DNA of 64,000 nucleotides from Deltaproteobacteria bacterium (GTDB lineage Bacteria; Desulfobacterota; Binatia; HRBIN30; CADEER01). This document shows, in pieces, positions 16,368 through 43,454 of the stretch (position 1 is the stretch's first letter; each line of letters starts with the position of its first letter). Location: positions 101,465 to 165,464 of the forward strand of contig JAJCZJ010000091.1 in assembly GCA_029262455.1 (NCBI GenBank), written 5' to 3'. The position numbers were made by a program, and so were the translations under genes. The notes under the pieces were generated by a model that had not been told where the DNA came from, did no database searches, and saw only the letters and a program-made list of their open reading frames with translations.

Positions 16368-17423
16368 ATGCGTGAAGTAGCGGCCGATATTCGTGCGTGG
16401 CTCGAACGCGGCGAGCGGCTGGCGCTGGCGACGTTGGTTCACGTGCAACGTTCGGCGCCACGGTTGCCCGGGGCTCACTGCGCGGTTGCTGAGTCGGGCG
16501 CGATGGTTGGCGCGATCAGCGCCGGATGTGTCGAGAGCGACTTGATCGAATGGTCGCGATCAGTTGTGGCGGGTGGCTCGCCACGCGTCATTTCGTACGA
16601 CGTCGCCGACGCCGATGCGATGCGCATTGGACTTACTTGTGGAGGGATGATCGAGGTTCTCGTCGAGAGTTTGAGCGATCACGGCGGCGCGTGGGACAAG
16701 GTCCTCGATTGTATCGAACGCGACCAGGCGGTTGCATTGGCGGTGGCGGTCAGCCCGGATGATTTGCGCGGTCGTCGAATGTTTCTCACGGACGACACGG
16801 CTGGAACGATCGATCCCGCCGTCGATGCGGCGGTCGTTGAGGCGATGCGACAGCAATTGATCGTGGGCGGCAGTAGTAACTTGGAAGTCGATCGCGCCGG
16901 AGAACCGGTGCGGGTGTTCGTCGAGGCGGTCGCGCCGCCGCCGAGCTTGATCGTCATCGGAGCCACCCAGACGGCATTGCCACTGATTAGAATGGCTCAC
17001 GAGCTCGATTTCCACGTGACAGTGGTCGACCCGCGCGAAGTCTTCGCTGCTGCCGACCGACTGCAGGACGCCGATGAGGTGATTCGAGAGTGGCCGGATC
17101 GCGCCTTGGAGTCGATGCGCTTTGACGAGAACACTTACGTCGTCGCGTTGACCCACGATGAGAAATTCGACCTTCCGACCTTGCGCAAGGTGCTGCGCTC
17201 CGATGTCGGATACATCGGAGCGCTAGGCAGCCGACGTACGCATGCAAAGCGGCTCGAAAAGCTGCGCGAAGAGGGATTCACCGAAGCTGAGTTGGTTCGA
17301 ATTCACTCCCCCGTCGGGTTGGATTTGGGCGGGCGGGCTCCGGCAGAAATCGCATTGTCGGTCATTGCCGAGATTACGGCGATTCGTTATGGCCGCGCTC
17401 CGCGCATTCGGCCAGCCGAATGA
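16368..17423 (+). CDS. XdhC/CoxI family molybdenum-hydroxylase accessory protein
   Basis: LALATLVHVQRSAPRLPGAHCAV...GAISAGCVESDL...LIVIGATQTALPLIRMAHELDFHVTVVDPR...YIGALGSRRTHAKR. Confidence 0.9.
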   Translation: MREVAADIRAWLERGERLALATLVHVQRSAPRLPGAHCAVAESGAMVGAISAGCVESDLIEWSRSVVAGGSPRVISYDVADADAMRIGLTCGGMIEVLVESLSDHGGAWDKVLDCIERDQAVALAVAVSPDDLRGRRMFLTDDTAGTIDPAVDAAVVEAMRQQLIVGGSSNLEVDRAGEPVRVFVEAVAPPPSLIVIGATQTALPLIRMAHELDFHVTVVDPREVFAAADRLQDADEVIREWPDRALESMRFDENTYVVALTHDEKFDLPTLRKVLRSDVGYIGALGSRRTHAKRLEKLREEGFTEAELVRIHSPVGLDLGGRAPAEIALSVIAEITAIRYGRAPRIRPAE

Positions 17424-18022
17424 CATCGGTGTCGGGCGTTGTCCTAGCGGCTGGGCGCGGGACGCGCATGGGAGTGACGAAGCAATTGTTGCCCCTAGGC
17501 GGTCGGCCATTGTTGTCACATGTTCTCGACACCGCACTCGCCTCGACTCTCGACGACGTTGTCGTCGTTCTTGGTTACGAAGCGGCGGTGGTTCGCTCGA
17601 AGCTCTCATCGTACGAGAATCGGGTGAGATTTGTCGTCAATCAGAATCACGGCGAGGGACAATCACGTTCTCTGGCGGCCGGCCTCGATGCTCTGCATAA
17701 GGATACCGGCGCTGCTGTCGTGCTGCTCGGCGATCAGCCGACGATTGCCTGCGAAGCGATCAATGCGTTGGTGACCGCGTACCGAAGGCGGCCCGGGCTT
17801 GCGGCCCGGGCCGAGTACGACGCTGGTGTACTGGCGCACCCGACCTTGATTGCGCGGGTCCTGTGGGACGAAGTCCGGGCGGTGCAAGGCGACGTAGGGG
17901 CGCGGGAAGTTCTTCGGCTGCACGACAGCGCTGTGGTGCGAGTTCGCGTCGGCGGGGCAGCGCCACGTGATGTCGACACCGATGCAGATTACCAGAACCT
18001 CATCGCCAACGCGGATGGTTGA
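17420..18022 (+). CDS. MobA-like/MocA-family NTP transferase (molybdenum cofactor)
   Basis: VSGVVLAAGRGTRMGVTKQLLPLGGRPLLSHVLDTAL; ATGA overlap with XdhC gene. Confidence 0.88.
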   Translation: MTSVSGVVLAAGRGTRMGVTKQLLPLGGRPLLSHVLDTALASTLDDVVVVLGYEAAVVRSKLSSYENRVRFVVNQNHGEGQSRSLAAGLDALHKDTGAAVVLLGDQPTIACEAINALVTAYRRRPGLAARAEYDAGVLAHPTLIARVLWDEVRAVQGDVGAREVLRLHDSAVVRVRVGGAAPRDVDTDADYQNLIANADG

Positions 18023-18055
18023 CGCCCCGCAGGGCCGCCGATAAGGGCCATCTGT

Positions 18056-18715
18056 ATGTCGATTGAGATTCGCGAGAAGTTTGAGGTGGCCGCTCCGATC
18101 GAAAAAGTATGGCAGTTTTTCATGGACCCGAAGTTGGTGGCTCCGTGTTTGCCGGGCGCGAAGCTCGAGGAGGTCGTAGACGAGCGCAACTTTCTCGGCG
18201 GCGTGAAGATCAAGATCGGCGCGATCACGACGCAGTACAAAGGTAAGATTGAGCTTACGAACATCGACGAGGCCAGCCGCAAGGTTGAGATGGCTGCCGA
18301 AGGCCGTGAGACTAGCGGCGGAATGGCCAAGGCGCTGATCACGAGTACTCTGGTGCCGACCGCGAGCGGCGGTACTGAAGTCACTGTCCAGGCAACGGCG
18401 GATCTCACCGGCAAGGTGATGCAGGTCGGCAGTCGCATGATCGAAGGGGTTTCGAAACAACTCTTCGGGCAGTTTGCCAAGCGCTTGCGGAAGAAATTGG
18501 AGACCGAGGAAGCATCTGGAGTGGCAGCGGGCGAGGCAAGTGCTCCGGTCGCTTCGAAAGCGCCGGGAGCGGCTGAAGCCCCCGCGCAACCCGCCACAAC
18601 TCCGTCGCCGACACCGGGCGCGCAGGATGACGAGGAAGAAGCGTTGTCGATTCTTCCGCTGATCCTGCGGGCGATCTGGGATGCGATTGTTGGCCTTTTT
18701 CGCAAGCGCAGCTGA
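18056..18715 (+). CDS. CoxG-like SRPBCC family protein
   Basis: MSIEIREKFEVAAPIEKVWQFFMDPKLVAPCLPGAKLEEV...FLGGVKIKIGAITTQYKGKIELTNIDEASRKVEMAAEGRE. Confidence 0.9.
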   Translation: MSIEIREKFEVAAPIEKVWQFFMDPKLVAPCLPGAKLEEVVDERNFLGGVKIKIGAITTQYKGKIELTNIDEASRKVEMAAEGRETSGGMAKALITSTLVPTASGGTEVTVQATADLTGKVMQVGSRMIEGVSKQLFGQFAKRLRKKLETEEASGVAAGEASAPVASKAPGAAEAPAQPATTPSPTPGAQDDEEEALSILPLILRAIWDAIVGLFRKRS

Positions 18716-19002: not shown

Positions 19003-20214
19003 ATGAACGATAGCAAAGCACTGGGAGACCTTTTGGTCGTCGAATTGGCCACGGAGCTGTGGTCAGCGATGGCCGGTTCGATGTTGGGTGACTTTGGCGC
19101 GACGGTTGTGTTGGTCGAGACGCCGGGTAGTGAGCGCATCGGCAATGGTGGCGAGCTGCCGCCCGCTGGGGGCTGCGACCATGAGGTCGAGCTCTCGCAT
19201 CGCAACAAGGAGAGCGTCGTCGTCGATACGGCTGCAGATGCCGGTCGCGAGGTTCTTCGTGAGCTGGTCGGCAAGGCCGATGTACTGCTCACCGATTGGC
19301 AGGAAGCAAAACTCGCGGCGCACGGCCTCGACTACGACTCCCTCGCTAAGACCAACCCGAAACTCATCTACGCACGTGGCAGCGGCTTTGGTCCGAAGGG
19401 GCCGGAGGCTGATCTGCCGGCGATCGATGAGCTGGCGGCAGCGCGCACCGGAATGATGCCGATCATGCAGCAGCCGGGGCAGCCTCCAGTCTACGCTGGG
19501 GCCGGTGTCATGTACACGGCGGTGATGCTTGCGTTGGGGATTTCGTTGGCGTTGCATCATCGCGACGAAACCGGCGAAGGGCAGGAAGTGGATGCGTCGC
19601 TTTACGCGAGCAATATGTACGGCGCGAGTCTCGACGTGCAGGCGTTCATCGCCATGGGGGGCGATCGCTTTCTGTCGCCAATCGACCGCATGGATGCCGG
19701 AAACCCGATGAGCGGAGTTCTCTATCCGTCGGCGGACACCAAATGGGTTTGTTTGACGATGCCCGATACAGGTCGTTGGTGGCCGGGACTGGCCAAGGTC
19801 GTTGGATTGGATGAGAACGACGAGCGTTTCAACACGCACGATAAGCGTTGCGGCGACAATCGGATTCTGATGATGGAAGTGTTGGAAGAGAAGTTTCGCT
19901 CCCAGCCTTCGGAGCACTGGAAGCGCGTGCTTACGGAGAATCAACTGTCGGCAGATGTCATTGAGGACTTCGATTACCCAACCAACGACCCGCAAGCGCT
20001 CCGCAACCGGTACATCATTGATGTCGAGCGTCCGGGTTTGGGCAAGGTTCAGTCGGTCGGATTTCCTATTTTCATGAGTGACAGCCCGGCGCGATTGGAT
20101 CGCCTGGCTCCGGGCCGAGGTCAGCACACGGCGCGAGTCCTGAGCGATGTCTTGGGTTACTCGGAGGATCGCATCAACGAGCTCGCCGAGAGTGGCGTGG
20201 TCAACCGGAGCTGA
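19003..20214 (+). CDS. CaiB/BaiF family III CoA-transferase-like protein (apparently lacks catalytic Asp)
   Basis: VVELATELWSAMAGSMLGDFGATVVLVETPGS...PGQPPVYAGAGVMYTAVMLALGISLALHHRDETGEGQEVDASLY. Confidence 0.88.
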   Translation: MNDSKALGDLLVVELATELWSAMAGSMLGDFGATVVLVETPGSERIGNGGELPPAGGCDHEVELSHRNKESVVVDTAADAGREVLRELVGKADVLLTDWQEAKLAAHGLDYDSLAKTNPKLIYARGSGFGPKGPEADLPAIDELAAARTGMMPIMQQPGQPPVYAGAGVMYTAVMLALGISLALHHRDETGEGQEVDASLYASNMYGASLDVQAFIAMGGDRFLSPIDRMDAGNPMSGVLYPSADTKWVCLTMPDTGRWWPGLAKVVGLDENDERFNTHDKRCGDNRILMMEVLEEKFRSQPSEHWKRVLTENQLSADVIEDFDYPTNDPQALRNRYIIDVERPGLGKVQSVGFPIFMSDSPARLDRLAPGRGQHTARVLSDVLGYSEDRINELAESGVVNRS

Positions 20215-20215
20215 C

Positions 20216-21424
20216 ATGGGCAATGCTCTCGAAGGAATCCGGGTTGTCGATCTCACGGTTTGGTTTCAAGGACCGGTCGCGGCGCAGCACCTTGCCGACT
20301 TCGGCGCGGAGGTCATCAAGGTCGAGCGCCCGAACGGCGGCGATCAGGGACGCGGTGTTCGCAGCATCAAAGCGCTGCCGGTTGCCGATTGGAACCAGTA
20401 CTTCCTGGTCATCAACCGCAACAAGAAGAGCATCGCCATCGATCTCAAGAAGGAATCGGGGCGCGAGATTCTCTATCGGCTGGTCGAGAAGTCGGATGTG
20501 TTCTTATCCAACATGGGCATCGAGCTGCTCGAAGGTTGGAACTTGGGCTACGACAAGTTGAGCGAGATCAACCCAAAGTTGGTCTATGCCACAAACACCG
20601 GCTACGGCCGCTTCGGTGCAGTGAATAAGCCGTCGTTTGACATGACCGTGCAGGCGCTTACTGGACTGATGGCGCGGCTCGGTGAGCCGGGGCAGCCGCC
20701 GATCTACCTCGGCATGGGGTCGGGCGATGCCTTTGGTGGCCTGATGTCGGCCTTGGCCATCATGATGGCCCTGCATCACCGGCGCCGTACCGGCAAGGGG
20801 CAGTGGGTCGACGCGTCCTTGTATGGAGCGCAGCTCTATCTCACTGGCCAGACGCTACAGGCGTACCTGGCGGGCGATCGGGATCGCGCCAAACAGCGCT
20901 CTCGACGGGACGTTGTGAACCCGCTGTGGAACGTCTACCAGGCGAGCGATCGTTGGTTGTTCGTTTGCGCACACAACAACGAGACTGGCTGGAAGAAGGT
21001 CTGCGGCGCAATGGGCGCATCCGAGCTGGCGAACGACGCGCGTTTTGCGAATGCGGATCTCCGACGCAGCAACGGTCCCGAATTGGTCGATGCGCTCGAC
21101 GCGGTTTTCGCACAGGGCGCTTCCGACGATTGGGTGAAGAAACTCCGGGCCAAGAATGTCCCGTCGAGCCCGGTGTGCAACTTGGCCGACCTCGCCGCTG
21201 ATCCACAGGCCTGGGAAAACGACTACTTCGTGAAAGCGCACTGCGAAGAAGTGCAACGCGAGGTAGACGTGCGCGGGCTGCCGATCGGCTTGCGCAAGAC
21301 TCCGGGAAGCGTGCGCACCCTTGGTCCCGAGTTGGCGCAGGATACCGAGCTGACGCTCAACATGTTGCTGGATTACTCGTGGGAAGAAATCGCCGAGCTC
21401 AAGGAAGCTGGCGTCATTCCATAG
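20216..21424 (+). CDS. CaiB/BaiF family III CoA-transferase
   Basis: IRVVDLTVWFQGPVAAQHLADFGAEVIKVERPNGGDQGR...PGQPPIYLGMGSGDAFGGLMSALAIMMALHHRRRTGKGQWVDASLY. Confidence 0.92.
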   Translation: MGNALEGIRVVDLTVWFQGPVAAQHLADFGAEVIKVERPNGGDQGRGVRSIKALPVADWNQYFLVINRNKKSIAIDLKKESGREILYRLVEKSDVFLSNMGIELLEGWNLGYDKLSEINPKLVYATNTGYGRFGAVNKPSFDMTVQALTGLMARLGEPGQPPIYLGMGSGDAFGGLMSALAIMMALHHRRRTGKGQWVDASLYGAQLYLTGQTLQAYLAGDRDRAKQRSRRDVVNPLWNVYQASDRWLFVCAHNNETGWKKVCGAMGASELANDARFANADLRRSNGPELVDALDAVFAQGASDDWVKKLRAKNVPSSPVCNLADLAADPQAWENDYFVKAHCEEVQREVDVRGLPIGLRKTPGSVRTLGPELAQDTELTLNMLLDYSWEEIAELKEAGVIP

Positions 21425-21531: not shown

Positions 21532-22770
21532 ATGGGCACGCCGCTCGGTCCGCTTGCCGGCCTACGTATTCTCGACATCTCCACCATGATGGCCGGTCCC
21601 TACGCCGGGACTTTGATGGGCGATATGGGAGCGGATGTCATCAAGGTCGAATCGCACTATGGCGACGAGAGTCGTCATCTCGGGCCATCGCGCGATGGGG
21701 AGCGATCCGCGTATCTCAGCCTGAACCGCAGTAAGCGCAGTCTTTGCCTCGATCTGCGAAAAGGCGAGTCGCAGGAAGTGTTTGCCCGGCTCGTGAAGTC
21801 GTCGGACATCATCGTGACCAATGTGCGCGAGCCGGCGCTGTCCAAGTTGCGCGTCGACTACGACAGTGTCGTCAAGCATCGCGAAGACATCGTGTGGATT
21901 GGCATTACGGCATTTGGGGCTGATGGCCCTTACGAAGGGCGGCCCGGGATCGACTTCCTGGCGCAAGGGTATGCCGGTCTGTTGGCGTTGAACGGAGATC
22001 CGGACGGAGATCCGGTACGCGTTACCGTTCCGTTGATCGATACTTTGACGTCGGTGCTGGCGACGACCGCGGCGCTGGCAGCGCTGCGTGTGCGTGACCA
22101 GACCGGCAAGGGCCAACGCGTCGATTTGTGTCTGCTCGATGCTTTGATTCATGCGCAGGCGGCGGGTCTGGGTAGTTATCTGATCACTGGCGAGGTGGTG
22201 CCGCGTACCGGCAATCGCAGCTTGTACTTTGCGCCTTCGGGTATCTATCCGACCAAGGATGGCAAGATGGCGGTGATCACATGCCCGGGGCAGAAGTTTT
22301 TCGCCAATCTCTGCACTGCAATGGAGCGCAAGTGGATCGACGAGGAGCGCTTCTCGACGGTCGATAACCGGTTGGCCAACCAAGACGAGCTCGATCGTAT
22401 CATTGGCGAGCGTACCGTGGACTTTGCGCGCGAGGAACTCGTGCAGCGGCTCGTCGACGCCGACGTGCTGACCGCCCCGATCAAGGAAGCGCCGGAAGTC
22501 GTCGAAGATCCGCAGGTGCGACACAATGGAATGATTCAGACCGTTGACCATCCCAAGCTCGGCGAGGTCGATGTGACGGGATTGCCTTTGCACTTTCACG
22601 GAACGCCCGGGGCGGTGCAGAGACATCCACCGATGCTGGGTGAGCATACCCAAGAGATATTGTCCGGCCTCGGATACTCCGACGAGGAGATCCGCGGGTT
22701 TGTCGAAACCAAGATTGCCGGCGAGTGGCCGGAAAGAATCCCCTCTCCCTCAGGGGGAGGGCCAAGGTGA
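21532..22770 (+). CDS. CaiB/BaiF family III CoA-transferase
   Basis: LRILDISTMMAGPYAGTLMGDMGADVIKVESHYGDESR...VTVPLIDTLTSVLATTAALAALRVRDQTGKGQRVDLCLLDA. Confidence 0.92.
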   Translation: MGTPLGPLAGLRILDISTMMAGPYAGTLMGDMGADVIKVESHYGDESRHLGPSRDGERSAYLSLNRSKRSLCLDLRKGESQEVFARLVKSSDIIVTNVREPALSKLRVDYDSVVKHREDIVWIGITAFGADGPYEGRPGIDFLAQGYAGLLALNGDPDGDPVRVTVPLIDTLTSVLATTAALAALRVRDQTGKGQRVDLCLLDALIHAQAAGLGSYLITGEVVPRTGNRSLYFAPSGIYPTKDGKMAVITCPGQKFFANLCTAMERKWIDEERFSTVDNRLANQDELDRIIGERTVDFAREELVQRLVDADVLTAPIKEAPEVVEDPQVRHNGMIQTVDHPKLGEVDVTGLPLHFHGTPGAVQRHPPMLGEHTQEILSGLGYSDEEIRGFVETKIAGEWPERIPSPSGGGPR

Positions 22771-22975: not shown

Positions 22976-24529
22976 ATGAACACAGCCAACTTTGTCAGTA
23001 TCCCGGCTTCGATCTTTCCGGATCAGGAAATCCTCGTGTTTGCCGGCCGCCGATGGACCTACGGCCAACTGTGGCAGCGGGTGCAGCAGATTGGCAACGC
23101 GTTGCGCAGCACTGGCGTCGGTAGCGGCGATCGGGTCGCGGTGTTGCAGACGAACTCGGACGACTACGTCGCGAGTTATTTTGCGACGGCGCTGATTGGC
23201 GGCGTTTTTGTCCCGGTAAACTACCGCGCCAAGCCGATCGAGTTGAAGCACATCTTGACGACCGCGAAGACCAAGGTGCTCCTGACCGGTGATCGGTACG
23301 TTTCGTTGATCAACGAGCTGCGCAGCGACCTGCCGACCGTCGAAACCTACGTCGCGCTCGAGAGCGAGCAGGATGGCATGGTGCACTTTCCGAAGTTGTT
23401 GGAAGGTGCGTCTCCGGAATGCGAAGAGGCGGCGATCGACGATGCGGAAACGACGATCTTGATGTACACCAGCGGCACGACCTCATTGCCGAAGGGTGTC
23501 ATGCTGACCCACAATGAGTTCACGGCCTACGTTGTGAACAACGTCGAGATGGCAGACGGCACACCGCGTGGTACGGCTCTCCTGTCGGCGCCGCTGTACC
23601 ACATTGCTGGTGCAACCAATATAATGACGAGCTTGTTCACCGGCCGGAAACTGGTGGTGTTGCCGCAGTTCGATCCCAGCGATTGGCTGGCGGCGGCACA
23701 ACAGGAAGAAGTTACGCACGCCTTCGTCGTTCCTACGATGATGAAGATGGTCATCGACCACCCGAAATTTGCGGACTTCAAGCTCGATAGCATCACGAAC
23801 TTGTCATACGGCGGTGCGGCGATGCCGTTCCCGGTCATTCGGCGAGCGATTGAGAGATTCCCGCCCGGCGTGGGGTTCGTCAATGCATTTGGCCAGACGG
23901 AGACGACTTCGACCCTCACAATTCTCGGCCCGGATGATCACAAGCTCGACGGCAGCGAAGAAGAGGTTGCGCTACGTCTCAAGCGTCTGACCTCGATCGG
24001 GCGGCCGTTGCCGGACGTCGAGGTCAAGGTGGTTGATGATGAGGGGAACACCTTGCCGACGGGCGAGGTGGGCGAGATCTGGGTGAGCACGCCACGGCTG
24101 ATGAAGGGCTACGCCAACGACCAAGGTGGTGCCGACTCACCGGTTCGCGACGGCTGGCTGCCGACCCGTGACATGGGTTGGATCGATGAGGAAGGATACA
24201 TCTTCTTGGGCGGCCGCAAAGACGACATGATCATTCGCGGCGGCGAGAACATCGCGCCCGCCGAAGTCGAGGCCGTGCTGCAATCGCACCCGTGTGTTGA
24301 GGAAGCAGCGGTCATCGGCTTCAAGAACGAGGAGTGGGGCGAGCAGGTAGGCGCCATTATCGTTCTCAGGCCGGGGGAGAATGCCAGCGCGAAGGACCTG
24401 CAAGAGTACTGCCACCAGCAGATGGCCAGCTTCAAAAAGCCGGAGATTCTCCATTTTGTTGATGAACTGCCGAAGAACCAGATGGGCAAGGTGCTCAAGA
24501 CCGATCTCCGCAAGACCTACGACGCGTGA
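22976..24529 (+). CDS. Acyl-CoA synthetase (AMP-binding, class I adenylate-forming)
   Basis: TTILMYTSGTTSLPKGVMLTH; YGGAAMP; FGQTETT; RDMGWIDEEGYIFLGGRKDDMIIRGGENIAPAEVE; KNQMGKVLKTDLR. Confidence 0.95.
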   Translation: MNTANFVSIPASIFPDQEILVFAGRRWTYGQLWQRVQQIGNALRSTGVGSGDRVAVLQTNSDDYVASYFATALIGGVFVPVNYRAKPIELKHILTTAKTKVLLTGDRYVSLINELRSDLPTVETYVALESEQDGMVHFPKLLEGASPECEEAAIDDAETTILMYTSGTTSLPKGVMLTHNEFTAYVVNNVEMADGTPRGTALLSAPLYHIAGATNIMTSLFTGRKLVVLPQFDPSDWLAAAQQEEVTHAFVVPTMMKMVIDHPKFADFKLDSITNLSYGGAAMPFPVIRRAIERFPPGVGFVNAFGQTETTSTLTILGPDDHKLDGSEEEVALRLKRLTSIGRPLPDVEVKVVDDEGNTLPTGEVGEIWVSTPRLMKGYANDQGGADSPVRDGWLPTRDMGWIDEEGYIFLGGRKDDMIIRGGENIAPAEVEAVLQSHPCVEEAAVIGFKNEEWGEQVGAIIVLRPGENASAKDLQEYCHQQMASFKKPEILHFVDELPKNQMGKVLKTDLRKTYDA

Positions 24530-24721: not shown

Positions 24722-26707
24722 GTGCGGATGATGAAAATTCTTCGGTCCGCAATCGGCATGGCGATGGTCATGACCTTAGTCTCCGGCTCTCAGGCCTTTG
24801 CTCAGGACGAATGTCAGAATGGTTCGTTCGACAGTACTTACGACCTGATTCAGAAGGCCATCTTCGAGAACAAGGGCTGCACAGCTGACGCTTGCCATGG
24901 CTCTGCCGCTGCCGGGGGACTCGTGCTGACGGCGGACGTTTCGTACGACAACTTGGTCAGTCAGCCGGCCGAGACGGTTCGAGACGACGACAAGTACCCG
25001 GGGCTCAGGCGGGTCGTCCCGTCCCAGAAAGATCAGAGCCTACTTTTCTTGAACCTGGCGGCGGGGAGCCTGCCCGATCGCTGGGAGGCTCCGCTGCGGG
25101 CGATGCCGCTTGGAGTCGACCCTCTTTCTCTCGACGAGCTCGAGGCGGTTCGTCAATGGATCGAAGCGGGTGCCTCGCGCGACGGGGTGGTGCCGGGTAC
25201 CGATGAGTTGCTCGATGCGTGTTTACCTCCGGCTGAGCCGATCGAGGTCGAACCTTTGGAGCCTCCGCTAGCGGGGACCGGCGTTCAGATCCGCAGCCCG
25301 AAGTGGATCTTGCCGGCGAATAGCGAGAACGAAGTCTGTTTCGCTGCGTACTATGACATCACGGATCAAGTGCCGAGCGAATTTCGTGGCCCGGATGGAA
25401 CGACCTTTCGCTACAAGAGTCAGCAGATTCGGCAGGATCCGCTCAGTCACCACTTGATTGTCGATCGCTACAACGGTGTCGCCGCGCTCGACGATCCGGC
25501 CTGGGGAACCTTTCGATGCCGCGGTGGTGCAAAGGATGGCGAGATCTGTCCTTCGACCGATCTGACGTTCTGTGGTGATGAGGGACTCTGCGGCACGGAT
25601 TGGAAGCGCGCGATTGCTTGCACGGGGTTTGGCCCACCGGATCAGGGTGCGGTGAACCAGTCGATGGTCATTATCCAGGAGGCCTCAGCCCAGCTCATCT
25701 TTCCTGCGGGAACGTTCCGCGAGGCGCCGCTCAAGGGCATGATGATATGGAACTCGCACGCCTTCAATCTCACTGACAAGGACGGCAAGATCGAAGCGTG
25801 GATGAACTTCGAGTTTGCTGCTCCGGACGAGCAAACCTGGCTCATGGAGCGTCTGTTCAACGTTAACAGCATCTTCGCGATGAACGTGCCGCCGTTTGAA
25901 GCGCAGGAAATCTGCCGGCATCACGTGTTTCCAGCCAACACGAAGCTCTATGAGCTGAGTTCGCACACCCACCAGCGCGGCAAGCGTTTCGACGTTTTTG
26001 AAGGACGCTACGAGTGTCAGGGCGGGGCAAGCGCGGGCGACCCCTGCAACCCAATGGCGGGTGACTCGATCGATCTTCCGGATCTCTGCTCGGGTGCGGT
26101 CTGTGGTGCTGTTGAGCCGGCTCCAATTGGGGATTGCGACGGCGACGGACGGGTCGGCATTCCCGATCTCATCACCTCCGTGAGTATCGCTTTGGACACG
26201 AGGCCGTTGTCGGCATGTCTGAGTAGCGACCCGGACGCCAGTGGTTCAGTGACGGTGGCGGAGTTGGTCAGAATGGTCAAAATCGCTCTAGCTGAACCGA
26301 CTTTTCGGGACCCAGAAGATGATTTCCTTTACAGCAATCTGGTCTACAACGACCCGACAGTGATTCTGTACGATCCGCCGAAGGCACTGGCCGACGAGAG
26401 AGGCAGCGCAGCCGCGCGCACGTTCACTTACTGTTCCCTATTCGACAACGGCTTCGGAGACCCGGCGGATGTGAAAACCTTCCGCGCCACCGACGATGGT
26501 CCCATGCCTTGTGCAAACCCGACCGGCTGCATCGAAGGACGCGTCAGCGCAAAGTGTGTCGGCGGATCCCAGGCGCAACGCGATACGAGTTGCGACAGCG
26601 CCCCCGGAGTGGGCGACGGCGTATGCGGCGGATGTACGGTGCGCGGTGGCGTTACGACCGAGGATGAAATGTACATCCTCATGGGAGCCTACTACGTCGA
26701 AGATTGA
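24722..26707 (+). CDS. Secreted protein with CX4CH cytochrome-like N-term, copper type II monooxygenase (PHM)-like region and inserted dockerin-like domain
   Basis: CTADACHGSAAAGGLVLTAD...MPLGVDPLSLDELEAVRQWIEAGA; YELSSHTHQRGKRFDVF (HxH..RGK); later FTYCSLFDNGFGDPADV; alternative ATG starts 24728/24731. Confidence 0.65.
   Translation: MRMMKILRSAIGMAMVMTLVSGSQAFAQDECQNGSFDSTYDLIQKAIFENKGCTADACHGSAAAGGLVLTADVSYDNLVSQPAETVRDDDKYPGLRRVVPSQKDQSLLFLNLAAGSLPDRWEAPLRAMPLGVDPLSLDELEAVRQWIEAGASRDGVVPGTDELLDACLPPAEPIEVEPLEPPLAGTGVQIRSPKWILPANSENEVCFAAYYDITDQVPSEFRGPDGTTFRYKSQQIRQDPLSHHLIVDRYNGVAALDDPAWGTFRCRGGAKDGEICPSTDLTFCGDEGLCGTDWKRAIACTGFGPPDQGAVNQSMVIIQEASAQLIFPAGTFREAPLKGMMIWNSHAFNLTDKDGKIEAWMNFEFAAPDEQTWLMERLFNVNSIFAMNVPPFEAQEICRHHVFPANTKLYELSSHTHQRGKRFDVFEGRYECQGGASAGDPCNPMAGDSIDLPDLCSGAVCGAVEPAPIGDCDGDGRVGIPDLITSVSIALDTRPLSACLSSDPDASGSVTVAELVRMVKIALAEPTFRDPEDDFLYSNLVYNDPTVILYDPPKALADERGSAAARTFTYCSLFDNGFGDPADVKTFRATDDGPMPCANPTGCIEGRVSAKCVGGSQAQRDTSCDSAPGVGDGVCGGCTVRGGVTTEDEMYILMGAYYVED
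26129..26295 (+). other. Dockerin-like double EF-hand module (copy D, internal insertion)
   Basis: GDCDGDGRVGIPDLITSVSIALDTRPLSACLSSDPDASGSVTVAELVRMVKIALAE. Confidence 0.75.
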
Positions 26708-26773: not shown

Positions 26774-27658
26774 TTACTTTTTTTGTGAAGCCTCGTAGTC
26801 GTCCATGATCTTCTGGTGCGCATCGGCGTACTGCTCGCGGATGTCCCAGAACTTCGGTTTGCGTTTTTCCACGAACGCGTTGCCGCCCTCTTTACCTTCC
26901 GGGGTATCGAACCAATCGGGATAGTATTGGTTTGAGAGCGTCCCCATCTCGAGGTAACCGTCCATCTCTTGATCGAAGGATGCTTTGAGAATCTCGAGAC
27001 ATCCGGGGCTGAGTGCCAGCATCTCTTCTGACCACTTCAAGTACTCTGCTTCGAGGTCGTCGAGCGGGACGACGGTGTTGACCAGGCCCATCTCGAGCGC
27101 CTTCTCGGCCGGATAGCGGCGGCACAGCATCCAGATCTCGCGCGCCTTCTTGGCGCCGACGACCTTGGTCAAATACGGAACGAAAAATCCGTCGGCGGGA
27201 CTCGATACTCGGGGTCCGGCCTGTGCGAACACTGCGTTGTCCGCTGCGATCGTGAAGTCGCAGCAGTAGGCCATGTGGTTGTGGCCCCCGATGCAGTAGC
27301 CCTGCACCGCGGCGATGACAGGTTTGCGCGATTGGCGCAGCAGTCGATTGTGTGGGTAGCGAAAATAGAAGGCCTTGCGGAGGCCCCACTTCTCCCACTC
27401 GACGTCGCCGCCGGTGCCGAAGTTTTTTCCGCTGCCGGCGATGACGATGACACCGATCTTGGGGTCGTGGTTGGCGTCGTAGAACGCGCGAAACATCTGT
27501 TCGACCGTTTCGAGTGTCATTACATTGTAGCGGTCGGGCTTGTTGATCGTGACTCTGGCGACGCCACCCCCGAGCTCGTCGTGAAAGCACTTGTCGTAGA
27601 GGATTTCGTCGAAATCGAAGCCGTCTCCCTCGACGGTTTGCCATTTTGTCCATGCCAT
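26774..27658 (-). CDS. Enoyl-CoA hydratase/isomerase superfamily, MenB/BadI-like
   Basis: YNVMTLETVEQMFRAFYDANHDPKIGVIVIAGSGKNFGTGGDVEW...GYCIGGHNHMAYCCDFTIAADNAVFAQAGPRV...VVGAKKAREIWMLCRRYPAEKALEMGLVNTVVPLDDLE. Confidence 0.88.
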   Translation of the reverse strand: MAWTKWQTVEGDGFDFDEILYDKCFHDELGGGVARVTINKPDRYNVMTLETVEQMFRAFYDANHDPKIGVIVIAGSGKNFGTGGDVEWEKWGLRKAFYFRYPHNRLLRQSRKPVIAAVQGYCIGGHNHMAYCCDFTIAADNAVFAQAGPRVSSPADGFFVPYLTKVVGAKKAREIWMLCRRYPAEKALEMGLVNTVVPLDDLEAEYLKWSEEMLALSPGCLEILKASFDQEMDGYLEMGTLSNQYYPDWFDTPEGKEGGNAFVEKRKPKFWDIREQYADAHQKIMDDYEASQKK

Positions 27659-27824
27659 TTCTGAGAGAACTCCTTGGTTATCGTGGTCGCAGGTAAGTAC
27701 GAAGCGGACGAACGCGGCGCAAGGCCGCCCCAGGGCCGTCGAACGATGACCCGAATGGGACGATGGCAATCGATGGTTTGCTCCGAAGTCGAAAGATCGA
27801 CCAAGTCGGAAATTGCCCTTGACT

Positions 27825-27860
27825 GACATTCGTCAGTGACGTATGTCAGTGACGAATGTC
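27825..27860. promoter_or_regulatory. 36-bp imperfect palindrome, candidate TetR operator in divergent promoter region
   Basis: GACATTCGTCAGTGACGTATGTCAGTGACGAATGTC lies between divergent crotonase and TetR genes. Confidence 0.65.
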
Positions 27861-30271: not shown

Positions 30272-31150
30272 ATGAAGCCCGCGCCTTTTGAGTACTGTGC
30301 CCCCGAAGTCTTGACCGAGGCGGTCGAGGTCTTGGAGCAAAACGAGGGTGACGCCAAAGTTCTCTCTGGCGGACAGAGCCTGATGCCGCTGCTCAACATG
30401 CGCCTGGCGCGTCCCGAGGTGTTGGTCGACCTCGCGCGGATTCCCGAGCTGGACTACGTTCGCGAGGATCATGGCGCCCTGGTGATCGGTGCGATGACTC
30501 GGCAAAGAACCGTTGAGCTCGATCCGATGGTGCGCGAAAAACACCCGTTGGTCTACGAGGCTACGATCAATGTTGCCCACCCGCAGAACCGCAATCAGGG
30601 TACCTTCGGCGGCTCGGTGGCTCATGCCGACCCGTCAGCGGAGTACCCCGCGCTCGCAGTCGCACTGGGCGCTCAGTTCAAGGCGGTTGGGCCCGACGGC
30701 GAGCGGACGATTGATGCCGAAGACTTCTTTGTGACGTACCTGACGACGGACCTGGAGGGCGCGGAGATTCTCACCGAGGTGCGGATTCCTGCGCTGCCGG
30801 ACGGCGCGGCTTGGGCGTTTACCGAAGTGGCGCGACGACATGGTGACTACGCTCTGGCGGGCGCGACCTCGTACTTCACCCTGGGGGCCGATGGCAAGTG
30901 CGCGACGGCGCGGATTGTTGTGTTCGGTGTCGGCGGCACGCCAGTGCGGGCGAGCAAGGCGGAGCAAGCGATGATCGGCGAGGCGCCTAGTGCGGCTCTC
31001 TTCGCGTCCGTCGGCAAGGCAGTGCTCGACGACGTCGAAGAACCTCAGTCCGATGTTCACGCCAGTGCCGCTCAACGTCGTGCCATCGCAGGTGTCATGA
31101 CAGAGCGAGGGCTGGCCGACGCGGCGCGACGCGCGGGGATTGCAATCTGA
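30272..31150 (+). CDS. Molybdenum hydroxylase FAD-binding medium subunit (CoxM-like)
   Basis: LSGGQSLMPLLNMRLARPEVLVDLARI...AHPQNRNQGTFGGSVAHADPSAEYPALAVALGA. Confidence 0.93.
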   Translation: MKPAPFEYCAPEVLTEAVEVLEQNEGDAKVLSGGQSLMPLLNMRLARPEVLVDLARIPELDYVREDHGALVIGAMTRQRTVELDPMVREKHPLVYEATINVAHPQNRNQGTFGGSVAHADPSAEYPALAVALGAQFKAVGPDGERTIDAEDFFVTYLTTDLEGAEILTEVRIPALPDGAAWAFTEVARRHGDYALAGATSYFTLGADGKCATARIVVFGVGGTPVRASKAEQAMIGEAPSAALFASVGKAVLDDVEEPQSDVHASAAQRRAIAGVMTERGLADAARRAGIAI

Positions 31151-31151
31151 T

Positions 31152-31634
31152 ATGCCGACTCCAAGACAGATCAGTGTCACCGTAAACGGCACGGTGTATG
31201 AATCGACTGTTGAACCGCGGTTGACGCTTGCGGACTTTCTGCGGCACGAGCTGGCGCTCCCGGGAACGCACGTTGGTTGCGAGCACGGAGTTTGCGGTGC
31301 TTGCACGGTTCTGTGGAACGGTCGCGCTGTTCGTTCGTGCATCATGTTGGCGGTGCAGACCGACGGTACCGAGATCACGACAGTCGAGGGCCTCAGTAAA
31401 GACGGTGAACTGAACGCGATTCAGCAGGCGTTCGTAGAGGAGCACGGCCTGCAGTGCGGTTTCTGCACGCCGGGGTTCCTGATGACGATCACCGAGATGC
31501 TGGACCGTAATCCGGATCCGAGCGATGAGGAAATCTACGACTACCTCGGCGGTCAGATCTGCCGCTGCACCGGGTATCAAAGTATTCTGGCCGCGGTGCG
31601 CAACGCGATCGAGAAAAAGAAGGCGGCATCGTGA
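31152..31634 (+). CDS. Molybdenum hydroxylase [2Fe-2S] small subunit (CoxS-like)
   Basis: [49 protein letters not shown]. Confidence 0.95.
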
Positions 31635-31687
31635 TCTTTCTCGATGCAGCCAGTCCCCGGTCCTTGCGGGACTGTCGATTTTCTCGA

Positions 31688-31860
31688 AATGACGGGCAAA
31701 GCCCAACAAGATCTCTTCTCCCGCATTGCAGGTGGGAGAGGATGAAAGGTGAGGGTTCGTTCTTGAACGTGTGCGCGAAAGCACTGCGGCACAAGGGCAA
31801 GAAGGAAGTCGGCGTTTCGATCCCCTCACCCTGGCCCTCTCCCGGAGGGAGAGGGGATTC
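31688..31860 (-). repeat. Dispersed ~175-bp repeat element, copy 2 (inverted relative to copy 1)
   Basis: Reverse complement gaatcccctctccctccgggagagggccagggtgaggggatcgaaacgcc...cttcttgcccttgtgccgca...accctcaccttt...caatgcgggagaa...gggctttgcccgtcattt. Confidence 0.8.
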
Positions 31861-31980
31861 GGGTGGGTTGGTCGATGCGACTTGGCAATCTGCATTAATC
31901 GACAGTCTCCCAAGGAGGGGGGCAGGGGGTGGTCGAAGTTACTGTGCCGTTCCCGCTGTCGATTCGAGTCGGAGTTCCCA

Positions 31981-34389
31981 GTGACCAGTCGGATCCCCAA
32001 CAAGATCGCCGATTTGCCAAATTCGTCGCCTCGCTTCATCGGTCAGGAAGTCGAACGGGTCGAGGATCGCCAACTGGTGTCCGGAAAGACGGAGTTTATC
32101 GACAATGTTTCCCTGCCGGGAATGTTGCATTGCGCGATCCTGCGCAGCCCCAATGCGCACGCGAAGATTACTTCGATCGATACGTCGGCAGCGGAGAAAA
32201 TGCCGGGCGTCATCGCTATCATCACAGGCGAGGATGCGAAGCGCTGGACACAGCCGATGCAGACCGTCCCGGAAGGTTGGGGCACACTTTGCCTTGCGAC
32301 CGATCGTGTTCGATTTGTCGGTGAACCGGTTGTTGCGGTTGCAGCGACGAGCCGGTACATCGCCGAGGACGCGCTCGATGAGATTATCGTTGACTACGAT
32401 CCATTGCCGCCGGTTGCGGATACGCAGAAGGCCGCCGATGCGCCGCCGATTTACGACGAGCACGAGTCGAACGTGGTGTTCCAACGCAAGTTTACCTGGG
32501 GAGAGGTCGACGCGGCGTTCACTGACGCCGACAAGGTGCTGACCGACAAGTTCCGCTGGCATCGACTCGGGGCCAATCCGCTCGAATGCAACGGTGTCAT
32601 TACCGAATGGGACATCATTGACGGAACGGTGACGACCCGCGGTAGCTTTCAATCGCAGGTCAACATGGGCCTCCTGTCGGCCGGTGCGCTGGGTGTGCCG
32701 TCGAACCGGATGCGCGTCATCAGTCAGCCTCATGGGGGCAGCTTCGGTGGCAAGGGTGGGCCGCGTGGTACGATCATCACCGCGCTGCTCTCGCGTAAGG
32801 CCGGCGGCCGGCCGGTTAAGTGGATTGAAGACCGCATGGAGTACCTGGCAGGTGGCGCCGGTCAGTCGTGGGACAGGTTTTACGACGTCTCGTTGGCGCT
32901 CAAGACGGACGGGACGATTACCGGATTGCGTGTCGTCTTGCTCGATGATCTCGGTGCGAGTGCGGAAGGCTTCGGCGCGGTGAGTGCGGCAAAGCCGCTG
33001 GCTGCCTTCACGGGCCCGTACGCGATTCCGGTTGCCGAATACGACCTGACCTTGGTGGCGACGAACAAGCTCCCGCAAAGTCCATACCGCGGCATGGGAC
33101 CGCCTCCCCATAATTGGGCGCTCGAACAGATGGTCGACCTCGCCGCCGTCGAGTTGGGTCTCGACCCAGCGGAGATTCGACGCAAGAACTATATCCCCAA
33201 GAACGCGTTTCCCTACACGATCGCCAGCGGCAACGAGTACGACAGCGGGGACTATGAGGCCGCACTCGACGCGATTGTCGAAATGGCCGACTACAAGGCT
33301 CTGCGGCGCGAACAGGAAGAGGCGCGCGAGCAGGGACGTCACCTCGGCATCGGCCTGGTCAACACGATCGAGCCAGGGGTCTTCGACTGGAACGCTTACG
33401 CAATCGTCGGCAGCCAGCAGACCGGGGTCCCCGAAGGTGCCACCGTCGGGATCGACATCATGGGCAAGATCGTCGCCAAGGTCGGTTTTTCCTTGGAGGG
33501 CCAGGGCCAATACACCGTGATCTCGCAAGTCCTTGCCGACTACTTCAAGGTAGAGATGAGCGATGTCCGGGTCGTGCCGCAGGATTCACTCTCGGCTCCG
33601 CCGCATTTTGGTCCGGGCGGAAGTCGCCTTGGTGTTGCCATCACGGGTGCCGTGCTGGGCGCCGCCGATCGACTCCGCGAAAAGTTGATCCGGGTTGGCG
33701 CGAACTTGCTGCAGTCGCCGCCGGAGGCGCTCGAACTCAGCGACGGGATGATCCGTATCCCGGGCGTCGCCGAAGCACAGATCCCGGTCGCGCAAGTTGC
33801 TGCGACGATGCTGGCGCGCAGCGATCTACTTCCCGAAGGCATGGATCCGAATCCTGAGGCGACCTATGTCTGGACCGCCGCCGGGCGCACTCCGGCCGAC
33901 GATCAAGGGCGCGCGAAGAGCTATCTGACGGCGGCCAACGCGTGTCACTTGGTCCTGGTCGAGGTCGATACCGCCACTGGCATGGTCGAGATTCTGAAGT
34001 ATTTCATTGTCGATGACTGCGGAACACGACTGAATCCGGCGACCTGTGAGGGAATGACGCAGGGCGGAGTGGCGCAGGGAGTCGGTGCTGCGCTGCTCGA
34101 GGAGTACGTCTACGATGACGACGCTCAGCTACTGACATCGACCTTCATCGACTACCTGATTCCGACCATCTACGAAGTGCCGATGACGACGAAGAAGGCA
34201 CTCGTCACGCCGTCGCCGTACACACCCCTCGGAGCCAAGGGCATGGGCGAGGGGGCGATTCACACAACGCCTGCAGCAGTGATGTGCGCGATCAACGACG
34301 CGCTGCGTCCGCTCGGGGTCAAGGCCCATGAAGTTCCCGCCTCGCCGAGACGGCTGTGGACGTTGTTGCACGATCAATCCGTAGGCTGA
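31981..34389 (+). CDS. Molybdenum hydroxylase large (molybdopterin-binding) subunit
   Basis: GTG start; RFIGQEVERVEDRQLVSGKTEFIDNV; GGSFGGKGGPR; SPYRGMGPPPHNWALEQMVD; LGAKGMGEGAIHTTPAAVMCAINDAL. Confidence 0.92.
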   Translation: MTSRIPNKIADLPNSSPRFIGQEVERVEDRQLVSGKTEFIDNVSLPGMLHCAILRSPNAHAKITSIDTSAAEKMPGVIAIITGEDAKRWTQPMQTVPEGWGTLCLATDRVRFVGEPVVAVAATSRYIAEDALDEIIVDYDPLPPVADTQKAADAPPIYDEHESNVVFQRKFTWGEVDAAFTDADKVLTDKFRWHRLGANPLECNGVITEWDIIDGTVTTRGSFQSQVNMGLLSAGALGVPSNRMRVISQPHGGSFGGKGGPRGTIITALLSRKAGGRPVKWIEDRMEYLAGGAGQSWDRFYDVSLALKTDGTITGLRVVLLDDLGASAEGFGAVSAAKPLAAFTGPYAIPVAEYDLTLVATNKLPQSPYRGMGPPPHNWALEQMVDLAAVELGLDPAEIRRKNYIPKNAFPYTIASGNEYDSGDYEAALDAIVEMADYKALRREQEEAREQGRHLGIGLVNTIEPGVFDWNAYAIVGSQQTGVPEGATVGIDIMGKIVAKVGFSLEGQGQYTVISQVLADYFKVEMSDVRVVPQDSLSAPPHFGPGGSRLGVAITGAVLGAADRLREKLIRVGANLLQSPPEALELSDGMIRIPGVAEAQIPVAQVAATMLARSDLLPEGMDPNPEATYVWTAAGRTPADDQGRAKSYLTAANACHLVLVEVDTATGMVEILKYFIVDDCGTRLNPATCEGMTQGGVAQGVGAALLEEYVYDDDAQLLTSTFIDYLIPTIYEVPMTTKKALVTPSPYTPLGAKGMGEGAIHTTPAAVMCAINDALRPLGVKAHEVPASPRRLWTLLHDQSVG

Positions 34390-34476
34390 CGCGGACAACG
34401 CGTCTTCAAATAATCTCAATTGAACAACTGAACTTGCACGGCTTCGCCAAGATGACGCCGTGAAGAAGGGATTGTC

Positions 34477-35532
34477 ATGGCAGGAAAAGACCATTTCGTA
34501 GCCCTCTCCGAGTGTCACTTCATGAATCCCGAGTCGATGCATGAAATGTCCTACTACCCGGGGTTTGAGCAGTGGTGGAAGAGTATCGATGGTGTGATGC
34601 GGGCCTGGGGCGGCGGGCGAGACCTCGCAGGCGGCGATGCGATGCCCGAGCCGCGAGCGCACGCCTTGATCGAGTACATGGACAAGTTCGGCGTCGACGT
34701 CTGTTTCGCGCTGCGAGAATCCATGATGGACACGGCCGGCTATGCCACCTGCATGTCGACCAACGGATTCATCATGAAGGAGATCGAGCCCTATAAGGAT
34801 CGCATGTATCTCGAGTGCAACGTTGGCCCGGTACTGCGCCGCGGCGTCAAGCACGCGATCTGGGAGCTCGAGTATCTTTACAAGAACGAGAACGCCAAGC
34901 TGTGTAAAGTCTACGCGCCGGAAGATGCGCCGCTCAATGATCCCGGGATGTGGCCGTTCTATGAGAAGGCGCAGGAGCTAGGAGTTGCGCTGACCATCCA
35001 TACCGGAATGGCGTACGTCCTACCGCAGCCGACCAAGAACACTCTACCCCTGTTGCTCGACGATGTTTGTCTGGACTTTCCCGATCTGAAGGTCATCGCG
35101 TACCACATGGGCTGGCCGTACCATGAAGAATTGATGGGACTAGCGGGCAAACATCAGAATCTTTACCTGAGTTTGTCTGGAATCATTGGCTGGTTTGTCC
35201 ATGCCCCGTACCGCGGTTACCACATGATCGGCGAGGCCCTACAGTGGGTATCCGACGACAAGATCGTCATGGGCTGCGATCTGGCCTTTGACGACATGGG
35301 TGCAGCGGTCGACTATATCCGCAACTTCGAGATGCCCGAAGAGTTGCAGGAGAAGTGGGGCTACAAGACGCTCTCCGAGGAGTCGAAGGCTAAGATCCTC
35401 GGTAAGAACCTTGCCAAGCTAGCCGGAATCAAGCCGACCAAGCGCATCAAGAAAGACAAACCCGCCAAGAAGGTCGCAGCCAAGAAGGTGGCGAAGAAGG
35501 TCGCGAAGAAAGCGGCGAAAAAGAAACGCTAG
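34477..35532 (+). CDS. Amidohydrolase_2-like protein with ExH-type metal motif and Lys/Ala-rich histone H1-like C-terminal tail
   Basis: SECHFMNPES; LTIHTGMAYVLPQPTKNTLPLLLDDVCLDFPDLKVIAYHMGWPYHEELMGLA; MGCDLAFDDM; tail KPTKRIKKDKPAKKVAAKKVAKKVAKKAAKKKR. Confidence 0.82.
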   Translation: MAGKDHFVALSECHFMNPESMHEMSYYPGFEQWWKSIDGVMRAWGGGRDLAGGDAMPEPRAHALIEYMDKFGVDVCFALRESMMDTAGYATCMSTNGFIMKEIEPYKDRMYLECNVGPVLRRGVKHAIWELEYLYKNENAKLCKVYAPEDAPLNDPGMWPFYEKAQELGVALTIHTGMAYVLPQPTKNTLPLLLDDVCLDFPDLKVIAYHMGWPYHEELMGLAGKHQNLYLSLSGIIGWFVHAPYRGYHMIGEALQWVSDDKIVMGCDLAFDDMGAAVDYIRNFEMPEELQEKWGYKTLSEESKAKILGKNLAKLAGIKPTKRIKKDKPAKKVAAKKVAKKVAKKAAKKKR

Positions 35533-35548
35533 CACTCTTCCTGGACAC

Positions 35549-35692
35549 GGGGAGAGGGGGAGTCTCCTGCCGAGCCGCGTGGGAACAGCGAGCACGGCTC
35601 GGCAGTAGCCTCGCAATGCGAGACAAGAAGGTAGTTGGCGGATTGATCCCCTCACCTAGCACTCTCCGGGAGGAGAGGGGATCTTTTTCGCT
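35549..35692. repeat. Composite intergenic repeat: 11-bp perfect stem CTGCCGAGCCG/CGGCTCGGCAG plus partial dispersed-element motif
   Basis: ctcctgccgagccgcgtgggaacagcgagcacggctcggcag followed by gatcccctcacctagcactctccgggaggagaggggatc. Confidence 0.6.
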
Positions 35693-35697
35693 CAAAG

Positions 35698-36867
35698 ATG
35701 ATGAATTTGAAAGACAAGGCCTGCATCGTCGGGATCGGCGAGACTCCGTACGTGCGCAAGCCGGGCTCTGGACTGACGCAACTCGGTCTCCAGTTGCTGG
35801 CGGCGAGGCGTGCGGTCGACGACGCAGGCGTTTCGCTCAAGGACGTTGATGGTTTGATGCCGTTTCCGAACCTCGGCAATGCCGAGGAGTTCGCCGCGAA
35901 CCTGGGTATCGAGAATCTGCGCTTCGCGACTACGGTCCACACTGGTGGCGCGGCGCCGGTGGCTTCGTTGCGGATTGCGGCGATGGCGGTGTGTTGCGGC
36001 GCTGCGAATGCAGTCCTGATTCCAGCTGGGTGGAACGGCTACTCGGGTAGCCGGGCACGGCAAACGGTCTCGCAGGATGTATCGTCCCTTCCAGGTGGCG
36101 GCATCGCGCGTGACTACTACTTGCCGTTCGGACTCACGGCGCCGCCGCAGTGGTATTCGTTGATGGCGCGTCGGCACATGCACGATTTCGGCACGACCGC
36201 CGAACAGCTCGGCGCGATTGCCGTCGCAATGCGTAAACATGCGCAACTCAATCCCAACGCGGTGATGCACGGCAAGCCGATGACACTCGACGACTACATG
36301 GCTTCTCCGATGATTACGGATCCGTACCGTCTTTTCGACTGTTGCCTCGAGACGGACGGCGCCGCCGCGGTGTTGGTGACGACGACGGAGCGTGCGCGCG
36401 ACCTTGGCAAAAAGCCAGTTTCGATCATGGGCGTCGCCTCGGGGCAGCCCTATCCCGCCGACGAGATCACGAATCGAAAAGACATCTTCCAAACCGGACT
36501 CACGATCGCCGCGCCCGAGGCGTTTGCCGCAGCCGGTGTAAAGCCGAAGGATATCGACTTCGCAGAGATTTACGATTGCTTCACCTTCGAAGTGTTACAA
36601 CAGCTCGAAGAGACCGGTTTTTGCGAGCGTGGCGGCGGTGGGGCGTTCGTCGAAGGTGGCCGCATCGAGATTGGTGGAGAGCTGCCGGTCAATACGCACG
36701 GCGGTTTGCTCTCTGAAGCGCACGTGCTCGGTATGAACCACATCGTCGAAGCGGTGAAGCAGTTGCGGGGTGAAGCTGGTGATCGACAAGTCGCAGAGGC
36801 GGAGCTTGGTGTTGTCACCGGATGGGGTGACTTCGGCGACGGCAGCTTGGCGATTCTCAGGAACTAG
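35698..36867 (+). CDS. Thiolase-like / lipid-transfer protein (SCP-x/Ltp2-like)
   Basis: ACIVGIGETPYVRKPGSG; DIDFAEIYDCFTFEVLQQLEETGFCERGGGGAFVEGG; ELPVNTHGGLLSEAHVLGMNHIVEAV. Confidence 0.88.
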   Translation: MMNLKDKACIVGIGETPYVRKPGSGLTQLGLQLLAARRAVDDAGVSLKDVDGLMPFPNLGNAEEFAANLGIENLRFATTVHTGGAAPVASLRIAAMAVCCGAANAVLIPAGWNGYSGSRARQTVSQDVSSLPGGGIARDYYLPFGLTAPPQWYSLMARRHMHDFGTTAEQLGAIAVAMRKHAQLNPNAVMHGKPMTLDDYMASPMITDPYRLFDCCLETDGAAAVLVTTTERARDLGKKPVSIMGVASGQPYPADEITNRKDIFQTGLTIAAPEAFAAAGVKPKDIDFAEIYDCFTFEVLQQLEETGFCERGGGGAFVEGGRIEIGGELPVNTHGGLLSEAHVLGMNHIVEAVKQLRGEAGDRQVAEAELGVVTGWGDFGDGSLAILRN

Positions 36868-42218: not shown

Positions 42219-43439
42219 TCAGAAGATGATCTCGTCGGCGATCAACTTGTCGTATCGATCGGGTGCGATTTCGAGGATTTCTTTGAAGACGTGATCGTTG
42301 TCGCGTCCCATGACCGGCCCGGGTTCGACGGCGGCTTCGGTGCGGCTGGTCTTCACGTAAGCGCCGTAGATCGTCTCTTTGAAGCCGAGCGGGTGTGTAA
42401 CTTCGATGTACGTTCCGCGTGCTTTGTAGTGGGGGTCATCCAAAAGGTCTCCGACATTCAAGACCGGTGCCGCCGCGACCCCTGCACCCTGTAGCTTTTC
42501 GGCCAGATCGCGGTCGTCGTGGTGTCTTGTCCATTCAGCTAGCTGCGAGTGCAGGGCCTCAATGTTCGTTACGCGTGCTTGCAGCGATTCAAAGTCGGGT
42601 TGGCTCGTCCAGGCGGGATCGCCCATCACGGACCGAAGACCGTTCCACTCGTCGTCGGTAAGCACGGCAATGCTGATCCATCGATCGTCGCCGGAGCACG
42701 GAAAGACGCCGTGCGGCGCTGCGGCGGCCAGCGGGTGACGATTGCCGATCGGGCCGGCATTGCGCCCGTTGAGCGCATAATCCATAAACGCCGGACCGAC
42801 CATGTGCATGACTGCTTCCTGCTGCGAGTAGTCGATGTGTTGGCCCTCACCGGTGCGGTCGCGGTGGCGCAGCGCGGCGATCACCGGAAAGGCGCCGAGG
42901 ATGCCGTTGTAGGGATCTGAGTAGGCGTTTTCGACAGGGATGGGCGGGCCGCCTGTGTAGCCGGTCAAGCTATCGAGTCCAGTCAGGCTGGTCAGACTCA
43001 GTCCATAGGTCCGGACGCTTTTCATCGGCCCGTCGAGGCCGGCAGCGGGCATCGAGAACATGATCGTATCGGGTCTCTCGGCCCGCAAAGTTTCGTAGCC
43101 GCAGCCGATCCGATCCATGGCGCCGGGGCCGAAGTTCTCGATGACGACATCGCATTTGGCTGCGAGGTTACGAGCGATCGCTTGCGCTTCTGGTTTCTTG
43201 AGATTGAGAGTTACGCTGCCGTTACCAGCCCAACATGCGTGATTCGAAAGTGAGCGATCGGGGCCGGGTTCGCCGCCGCCAAATGGTGGCAGCTTCCGAG
43301 TCAAATCGATGCGCGCTTTCGATTCGATCTTGTAGACCTCGGCTCCGAGGAAGGCCAGAGTCTGACCCGTCACCGGACCAGCCCAAACCCATCCAAAGTT
43401 GGCAACACGAATTCCTTTGAGAGGAAGATTCTTAGGCAT
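42219..43439 (-). CDS. CaiB/BaiF family III CoA-transferase
   Basis: IRVANFGWVWAGPVTGQTLAFLGAEVYKIESKAR...PIPVENAYSDPYNGILGAFPVIAALRHRDRTGEGQHIDYSQQEA. Confidence 0.92.
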   Translation of the reverse strand: MPKNLPLKGIRVANFGWVWAGPVTGQTLAFLGAEVYKIESKARIDLTRKLPPFGGGEPGPDRSLSNHACWAGNGSVTLNLKKPEAQAIARNLAAKCDVVIENFGPGAMDRIGCGYETLRAERPDTIMFSMPAAGLDGPMKSVRTYGLSLTSLTGLDSLTGYTGGPPIPVENAYSDPYNGILGAFPVIAALRHRDRTGEGQHIDYSQQEAVMHMVGPAFMDYALNGRNAGPIGNRHPLAAAAPHGVFPCSGDDRWISIAVLTDDEWNGLRSVMGDPAWTSQPDFESLQARVTNIEALHSQLAEWTRHHDDRDLAEKLQGAGVAAAPVLNVGDLLDDPHYKARGTYIEVTHPLGFKETIYGAYVKTSRTEAAVEPGPVMGRDNDHVFKEILEIAPDRYDKLIADEIIF

Positions 43440-43454
43440 GTCGGTTTTCCGTTC

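Follow-up and report, generated by a model that had tools for sequence, protein, structure and literature searches.

Two adjacent CaiB/BaiF genes, found in a window of 64,000 nucleotides (the whole stretch of DNA that was analysed), most likely encode the two subunits of a single heterodimeric family III CoA-transferase that has one working site. We put the probability of this reading, which is drawn from sequence comparisons, at roughly 0.8. The pair is made up as follows.

19003..20214, + strand: gene 1, CaiB/BaiF (family III CoA-transferase) subunit lacking the catalytic Asp, 403 aa (PF02515, alignments)
19487..19528, + strand: segment of gene 1 where the nucleophile is missing, about VYAGAGVMYTAVML; its counterpart in gene 2 has two residues more (alignments)
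20204..20218, + strand: junction of genes 1 and 2, with a putative Shine-Dalgarno sequence CGGAG, the TGA, one base (C) and the ATG at 20216-20218
20212-20214, + strand: stop codon TGA of gene 1 (read from the sequence)
20216..21424, + strand: gene 2, predicted catalytic CaiB/BaiF subunit, 402 aa, Asp171 corresponding to Frc Asp169 (PF02515, alignments)
20726..20728, + strand: codon of the predicted catalytic Asp171 of gene 2, GAT in GGGTCGGGCGATGCC (sequence, alignment)

The start of gene 2 was taken as the ATG at 20216, the mechanical ORF start at 20147 being too early. The first-pass annotation had placed the two genes two bases apart; in fact, a single C separates stop from start. The CGGAG, which could plausibly serve gene 2 as its ribosome-binding site, sits within the 3′ end of gene 1, and we infer that translation of the two genes is coupled.

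Both proteins matched the PF02515 profile over their whole length, at 243 bits for gene 1 and 364 bits for gene 2, against a curated cut-off of 23.3. A moderate-confidence model of gene 1, built from family sequences, aligned to family III structures with a TM of about 0.63-0.73 and a probability of 1.00. The least reliable stretches of the monomer model (pLDDT 75, pTM 0.67) were residues 138-167 and 200-231, perhaps because the partner is needed there, perhaps because the alignment is thin. No equivalog model reached its cut-off for either protein, and CaiB/BaiF also includes Mct and alpha-methylacyl-CoA racemase, so that another CaiB-type activity (intramolecular transfer, racemase, isomerase) carried by the same half-dead architecture has to be considered. 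The best solved relatives of gene 2 are nevertheless transferases of the succinyl-CoA:glutarate and formyl-CoA types, with racemases well behind, and we regard such an activity as unlikely, with a little weight left to it; it would leave the heterodimer reading unaffected.

In the alignment, Asp171 of gene 2 (GSGDAF) fell on Frc Asp169, and gene 1 showed a two-residue gap and a Val at that column. Both the lack of Asp and the shortening, reported in the first-pass annotation, were thus confirmed, and the segments it quoted are exact. It had also stated that the four other CaiB/BaiF proteins of the window keep the Asp, which the alignment bore out for gene 2 and for the following three.

21532..22770, + strand: third CaiB/BaiF gene, PLIDTL, Asp present; follows the pair in Binatota and at several other loci
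42219-43487, − strand: CaiB/BaiF gene, AYSDPY, Asp present (alignment)
43565-44770, − strand: CaiB/BaiF gene, FSGDYF, Asp present (alignment)

The third gene was taken as a separate enzyme. The last two form a second pair (42219-44770, − strand), probably another heterodimer; at least four loci (L108, L109, L110, L114) have its two genes fused into one ORF of about 845 aa, and two orthologs of its first gene have Glu in place of Asp. The window's genome contains 29 CaiB matches.

We compared 28 orthologs of gene 1 with 28 of gene 2, from Binatota, Pseudomonadota and Myxococcota. The Asp column was occupied by Gln, Ala, Val, Pro or Ser in gene 1 orthologs, never by Asp (0/28), and by Asp in all 28 gene 2 orthologs. 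Compared with Frc and BbsF, which have the Asp at the nucleophile column, gene 1 lacks it, as BbsE does. No substitute conserved Asp was found at or beside this column in the 28 gene 1 orthologs. A candidate replacement, D142, was rejected, since gene 2 and most compared groups have it as a conserved residue too. Gene 1 is a family III protein by descent, but with the Asp absent from 28 of 28 orthologs it cannot on its own be called a CoA-transferase.

Losses in gene 1 extend to the residues that hold CoA. In a model of MCT, Asn100 and Arg75 contact CoA (PMC9196870), and we took them as equivalents of the Asn at Frc position 96 and of the Lys75 position. At Frc 96, all 28 gene 1 orthologs have Asp (D98), against Asn in 85 of 85 sequences of the four other groups compared; this Asn is kept in every gene 2 ortholog (28/28). 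Lys75 is lost from gene 1 and kept in 26 of the 28 gene 2 orthologs. From its sequence, the own pocket of gene 1 would therefore be devoid of nucleophile and CoA contacts.

Family III proteins form an interlocked dimer in which each pocket is built from the large domain of one chain and the small domain of the other, the conserved Asp and several CoA contacts lying in the large domain (PMC9196870). We propose that the large domain of gene 2 would bind CoA and bear the nucleophilic Asp171, with the small domain of gene 1 closing this pocket. The other pocket, which combines the large domain of gene 1 with the small domain of gene 2 and lacks Asp and CoA-contact residues, would be vestigial. There would thus be one working site per dimer, and gene 1 would be required to complete it.

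If only the Asp of gene 2 is working, conservation is expected in the large domain of gene 2 and the small domain of gene 1, and drift in the remaining two. Mean pairwise identity per column was 0.58 for the large and 0.64 for the small domain of gene 1, and 0.77 and 0.43, respectively, for gene 2. The third, Asp-bearing CaiB gave 0.72 and 0.61 by the same measure, and all the Asp-bearing groups compared had a better conserved large domain than gene 1. The interaction between gene and domain for the pair was 0.39, a value reached in 0 of 10,000 column permutations and in 3 of 285 circular shifts, and the crossed pattern was also present in Binatota alone and in Pseudomonadota alone. Two controls were run. 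BbsE/BbsF (7 ortholog pairs) went in the same direction with a weaker interaction of 0.21, and the window pair 43565/42219, both members of which mostly have the Asp, showed a milder crossed pattern (interaction 0.19). Crossed conservation may therefore be a mark of specialised heterodimers in general. Since a mostly Asp-bearing pair has a milder version of it, it is no proof of a dead site when taken alone, and the dead-site reading rests on the lost residues. The pattern of genes 1 and 2 agrees with a dimer in which one pocket is live and the other vestigial, the small domain of gene 1 apparently remaining under constraint.

The two genes also travel together. Gene 1 was detected in 16 of the 148 genomes of the window's class, a gene 2 ortholog (at least 59% identity) in the same 16, and gene 1 alone in none; a seventeenth gene 2 match in the class was a 44% paralog. 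In 15 of these 16 genomes the two genes lie side by side in unchanged order, the matches in the remaining one being on fragmented contigs. Among 17 related loci, 16 have orthologs of the pair or of gene 1; they belong to Binatota, Myxococcota and Pseudomonadota, including Aromatoleum, Azoarcus and Halieaceae. A phylum-wide sample yielded only 2 pair carriers among 297 genomes, and further carriers for the ortholog set were drawn from the window's class. In a Myxococcales genome (L016), genes 1 and 2 are joined in frame in one ORF by a short linker. Two irregular loci were noted along the way: at L003:9396-13406, gene 2, a shortened third CaiB and the acyl-CoA ligase lie in one ORF of about 1333 aa, either a real fusion or an assembly error, and a gene 2 ortholog (G368:C235:34488-35690) has two in-frame TAG codons inside the match.

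Co-occurrence and fusion bear on the possibility that the two proteins form separate homodimers, gene 1 sharing no more than a transcript with gene 2 and acting independently as a CoA-binding or regulatory protein. Stand-alone CaiB proteins without the Asp are known: one from the window's genome (L122:7396-8664, G000:C85) and one from Aromatoleum toluclasticum (L123:7861-9099) have Leu or Ile at the Asp column and share a long common branch, and no CaiB gene lies directly beside either, so that no partner is apparent. This scheme is however at odds with the strict co-occurrence, the L016 fusion and the crossed conservation; in particular, the small domain of gene 2 drifts, although a gene 2 homodimer would need it in both pockets. 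We consider it very unlikely.

Alternatively, gene 1 could be catalytic by itself, using another acid as nucleophile. Two acids near its old pocket are invariant, D98 and E143 (28/28 each, the latter unique to gene 1); both align with pocket positions, and they are absent from all compared Asp-bearing groups. Yet both are off the nucleophile column, D98 replaces a CoA-holding residue, Lys75 is gone, the large domain is the least conserved when set against those of the Asp-bearing groups, and gene 1 was never seen without gene 2 in the genomes searched, which makes an autonomous gene 1 enzyme highly improbable. The two acids count at the same time against gene 1 being a pure relic, as a purely structural relic need not keep them. 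One may imagine that the old pocket was repurposed, D98 and E143 forming a new ligand or allosteric site coupled to the single working pocket; we find this quite unlikely. Finally, a decaying pseudogene or a sequencing error, for which the missing Asp and nothing beyond it could be invoked, is refuted by the orthologs, because the same loss is found in all 28 across several phyla and gene 1 evolves with a dN/dS of about 0.08-0.17, indicative of purifying selection. Judged from these sequences, the loss of Asp is not due to chance or error, and gene 1 is a conserved protein.

Returning to the heterodimer with one working site, the first-pass annotation had proposed gene 1 as a non-catalytic or regulatory subunit of an obligate heterodimer with gene 2. 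The obligate association is well backed by co-occurrence, conserved order, the L016 fusion, the residue losses and the BbsEF precedent. A non-catalytic role agrees with the loss of Asp and CoA contacts and with the same precedent. A regulatory one is not indicated, because the small domain is the best-kept part of gene 1, which fits its supplying half of the working pocket. From sequence data of this kind, we infer that the two proteins assemble and that the heterodimer transfers CoA.

The half-dead two-subunit design itself is already known from toluene-degrading bacteria (BbsEF). As the earlier annotation stated, heteromeric family III enzymes are established: the layout is solved in PDB 9fn0/9fol, with BbsE lacking the Asp and a CoA adduct on D178 of BbsF. 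Our comparison was made from PDB titles and sequences; the title of 9fol gives a D178-CoA adduct, and D178 is the Asp of BbsF by residue count. BbsE of Aromatoleum toluclasticum, whose sequence is almost that of 9fn0 chain A, carries a Tyr at the Asp column. As with our pair, bbsE and bbsF are adjacent CaiB genes, the first without and the second with Asp, and both pairs show crossed conservation. The differences are that no bbs operon (BbsG, BbsH, BbsCD, BbsAB) surrounds genes 1 and 2, that gene 1 has a two-residue deletion and an Asp for the CoA-contact Asn, and that its pair's crossed conservation is about 2 times stronger, with samplings that differ. In a tree of 90 domains, the clades of gene 1 and gene 2 came out as sisters (100/97), apart from both BbsE and BbsF, and six changes of Asp state were forced by well-supported branches. 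By this phylogeny, the pair is not a member of BbsEF, which is the right precedent for design only. Since gene 1 is sister to gene 2 rather than to BbsE, its Asp appears to have been lost independently and this half-dead heterodimer to have arisen separately; the pair would stem from duplication of an Asp-bearing ancestor, followed by that loss.

Four other proteins of the window's genome (L042:3454-5925, L043:1177-3672, L044:746-3202 and L045:796-3015) have an N-terminal CaiB domain without Asp and a C-terminal one with it. They resemble our pair in joining an Asp-less to an Asp-bearing domain and differ in having both on one polypeptide. The tree places the N-terminal domains of L043, L044 and L045 in its BbsE-like part, that of L042 having been left out as too short. 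To SmtAB and SptAB/PhtSaSb the likeness is in their two-subunit description. SmtAB is a two-subunit family III enzyme. The same is true of SptAB/PhtSaSb, a succinyl-CoA:phthalate CoA-transferase (PMC11659651). The homodimeric Frc/YfdW, CaiB, human SUGCT and Mct share the fold, the Asp of gene 2 and pockets at the interface of large and small domains (PMC9196870); they differ in having identical chains, both with Asp, and gene 1 is about 21-25% identical to them in the fold search.

The surroundings of the pair were also considered.

16368..18715, + strand: XdhC-like, MocA-like and CoxG-like molybdenum hydroxylase maturation genes, conserved neighbours
22976..24529, + strand: acyl-CoA ligase (AMP-forming), conserved neighbour in close relatives (NCBIfam PRK06187, above cut-off)
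24722-26707, + strand: protein of 661 aa with no NCBIfam match, beside the cluster in a close relative too (74%, L001)
26774..27829, − strand: MenB/BadI-like crotonase (below equivalog cut-offs)
30272..36867, + strand: CoxM-, CoxS- and CoxL-like molybdenum hydroxylase subunits and a lipid-transfer/thiolase-type protein
34477-35532, + strand: ORF without assignment, after the CoxM-, CoxS- and CoxL-like genes

The XdhC-like and MocA-like assignments are below curated cut-offs, and the CoxG-like gene, which has no family match, is presumably of that kind. The thiolase-type protein matches BbsB far below cut-off. Relatives of the crotonase lie directly 3′ of the pair in Aromatoleum/Azoarcus and Halieaceae, and the conserved neighbours, in varying combinations, also include old-yellow-enzyme-like and F420-dependent quinone reductase-like proteins. 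This neighbourhood suggests CoA-dependent breakdown of some cyclic compound, in which the pair would activate a carboxylic acid within a catabolic pathway using the molybdenum hydroxylase and crotonase. The molybdenum hydroxylase, crotonase and old-yellow-enzyme genes led us to consider steroid 2,3-seco, cyclohexanedione and polycyclic aromatic routes, for which literature searches returned no matching cluster.

Taken with BbsEF, the pair indicates that half-dead heterodimers evolved on at least two occasions among family III CoA-transferases, the domains dividing the work in the same way each time. Crossed conservation between the two domains offers a hint, readable from sequence alone, to CaiB pairs that are obligate heterodimers; this is useful because CaiB genes are numerous and each is easily annotated as an enzyme complete in itself. 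The pair is also a marker of a catabolic neighbourhood, still uncharacterised, that is common to Binatota, Aromatoleum/Azoarcus and Halieaceae, groups with some cultured members.
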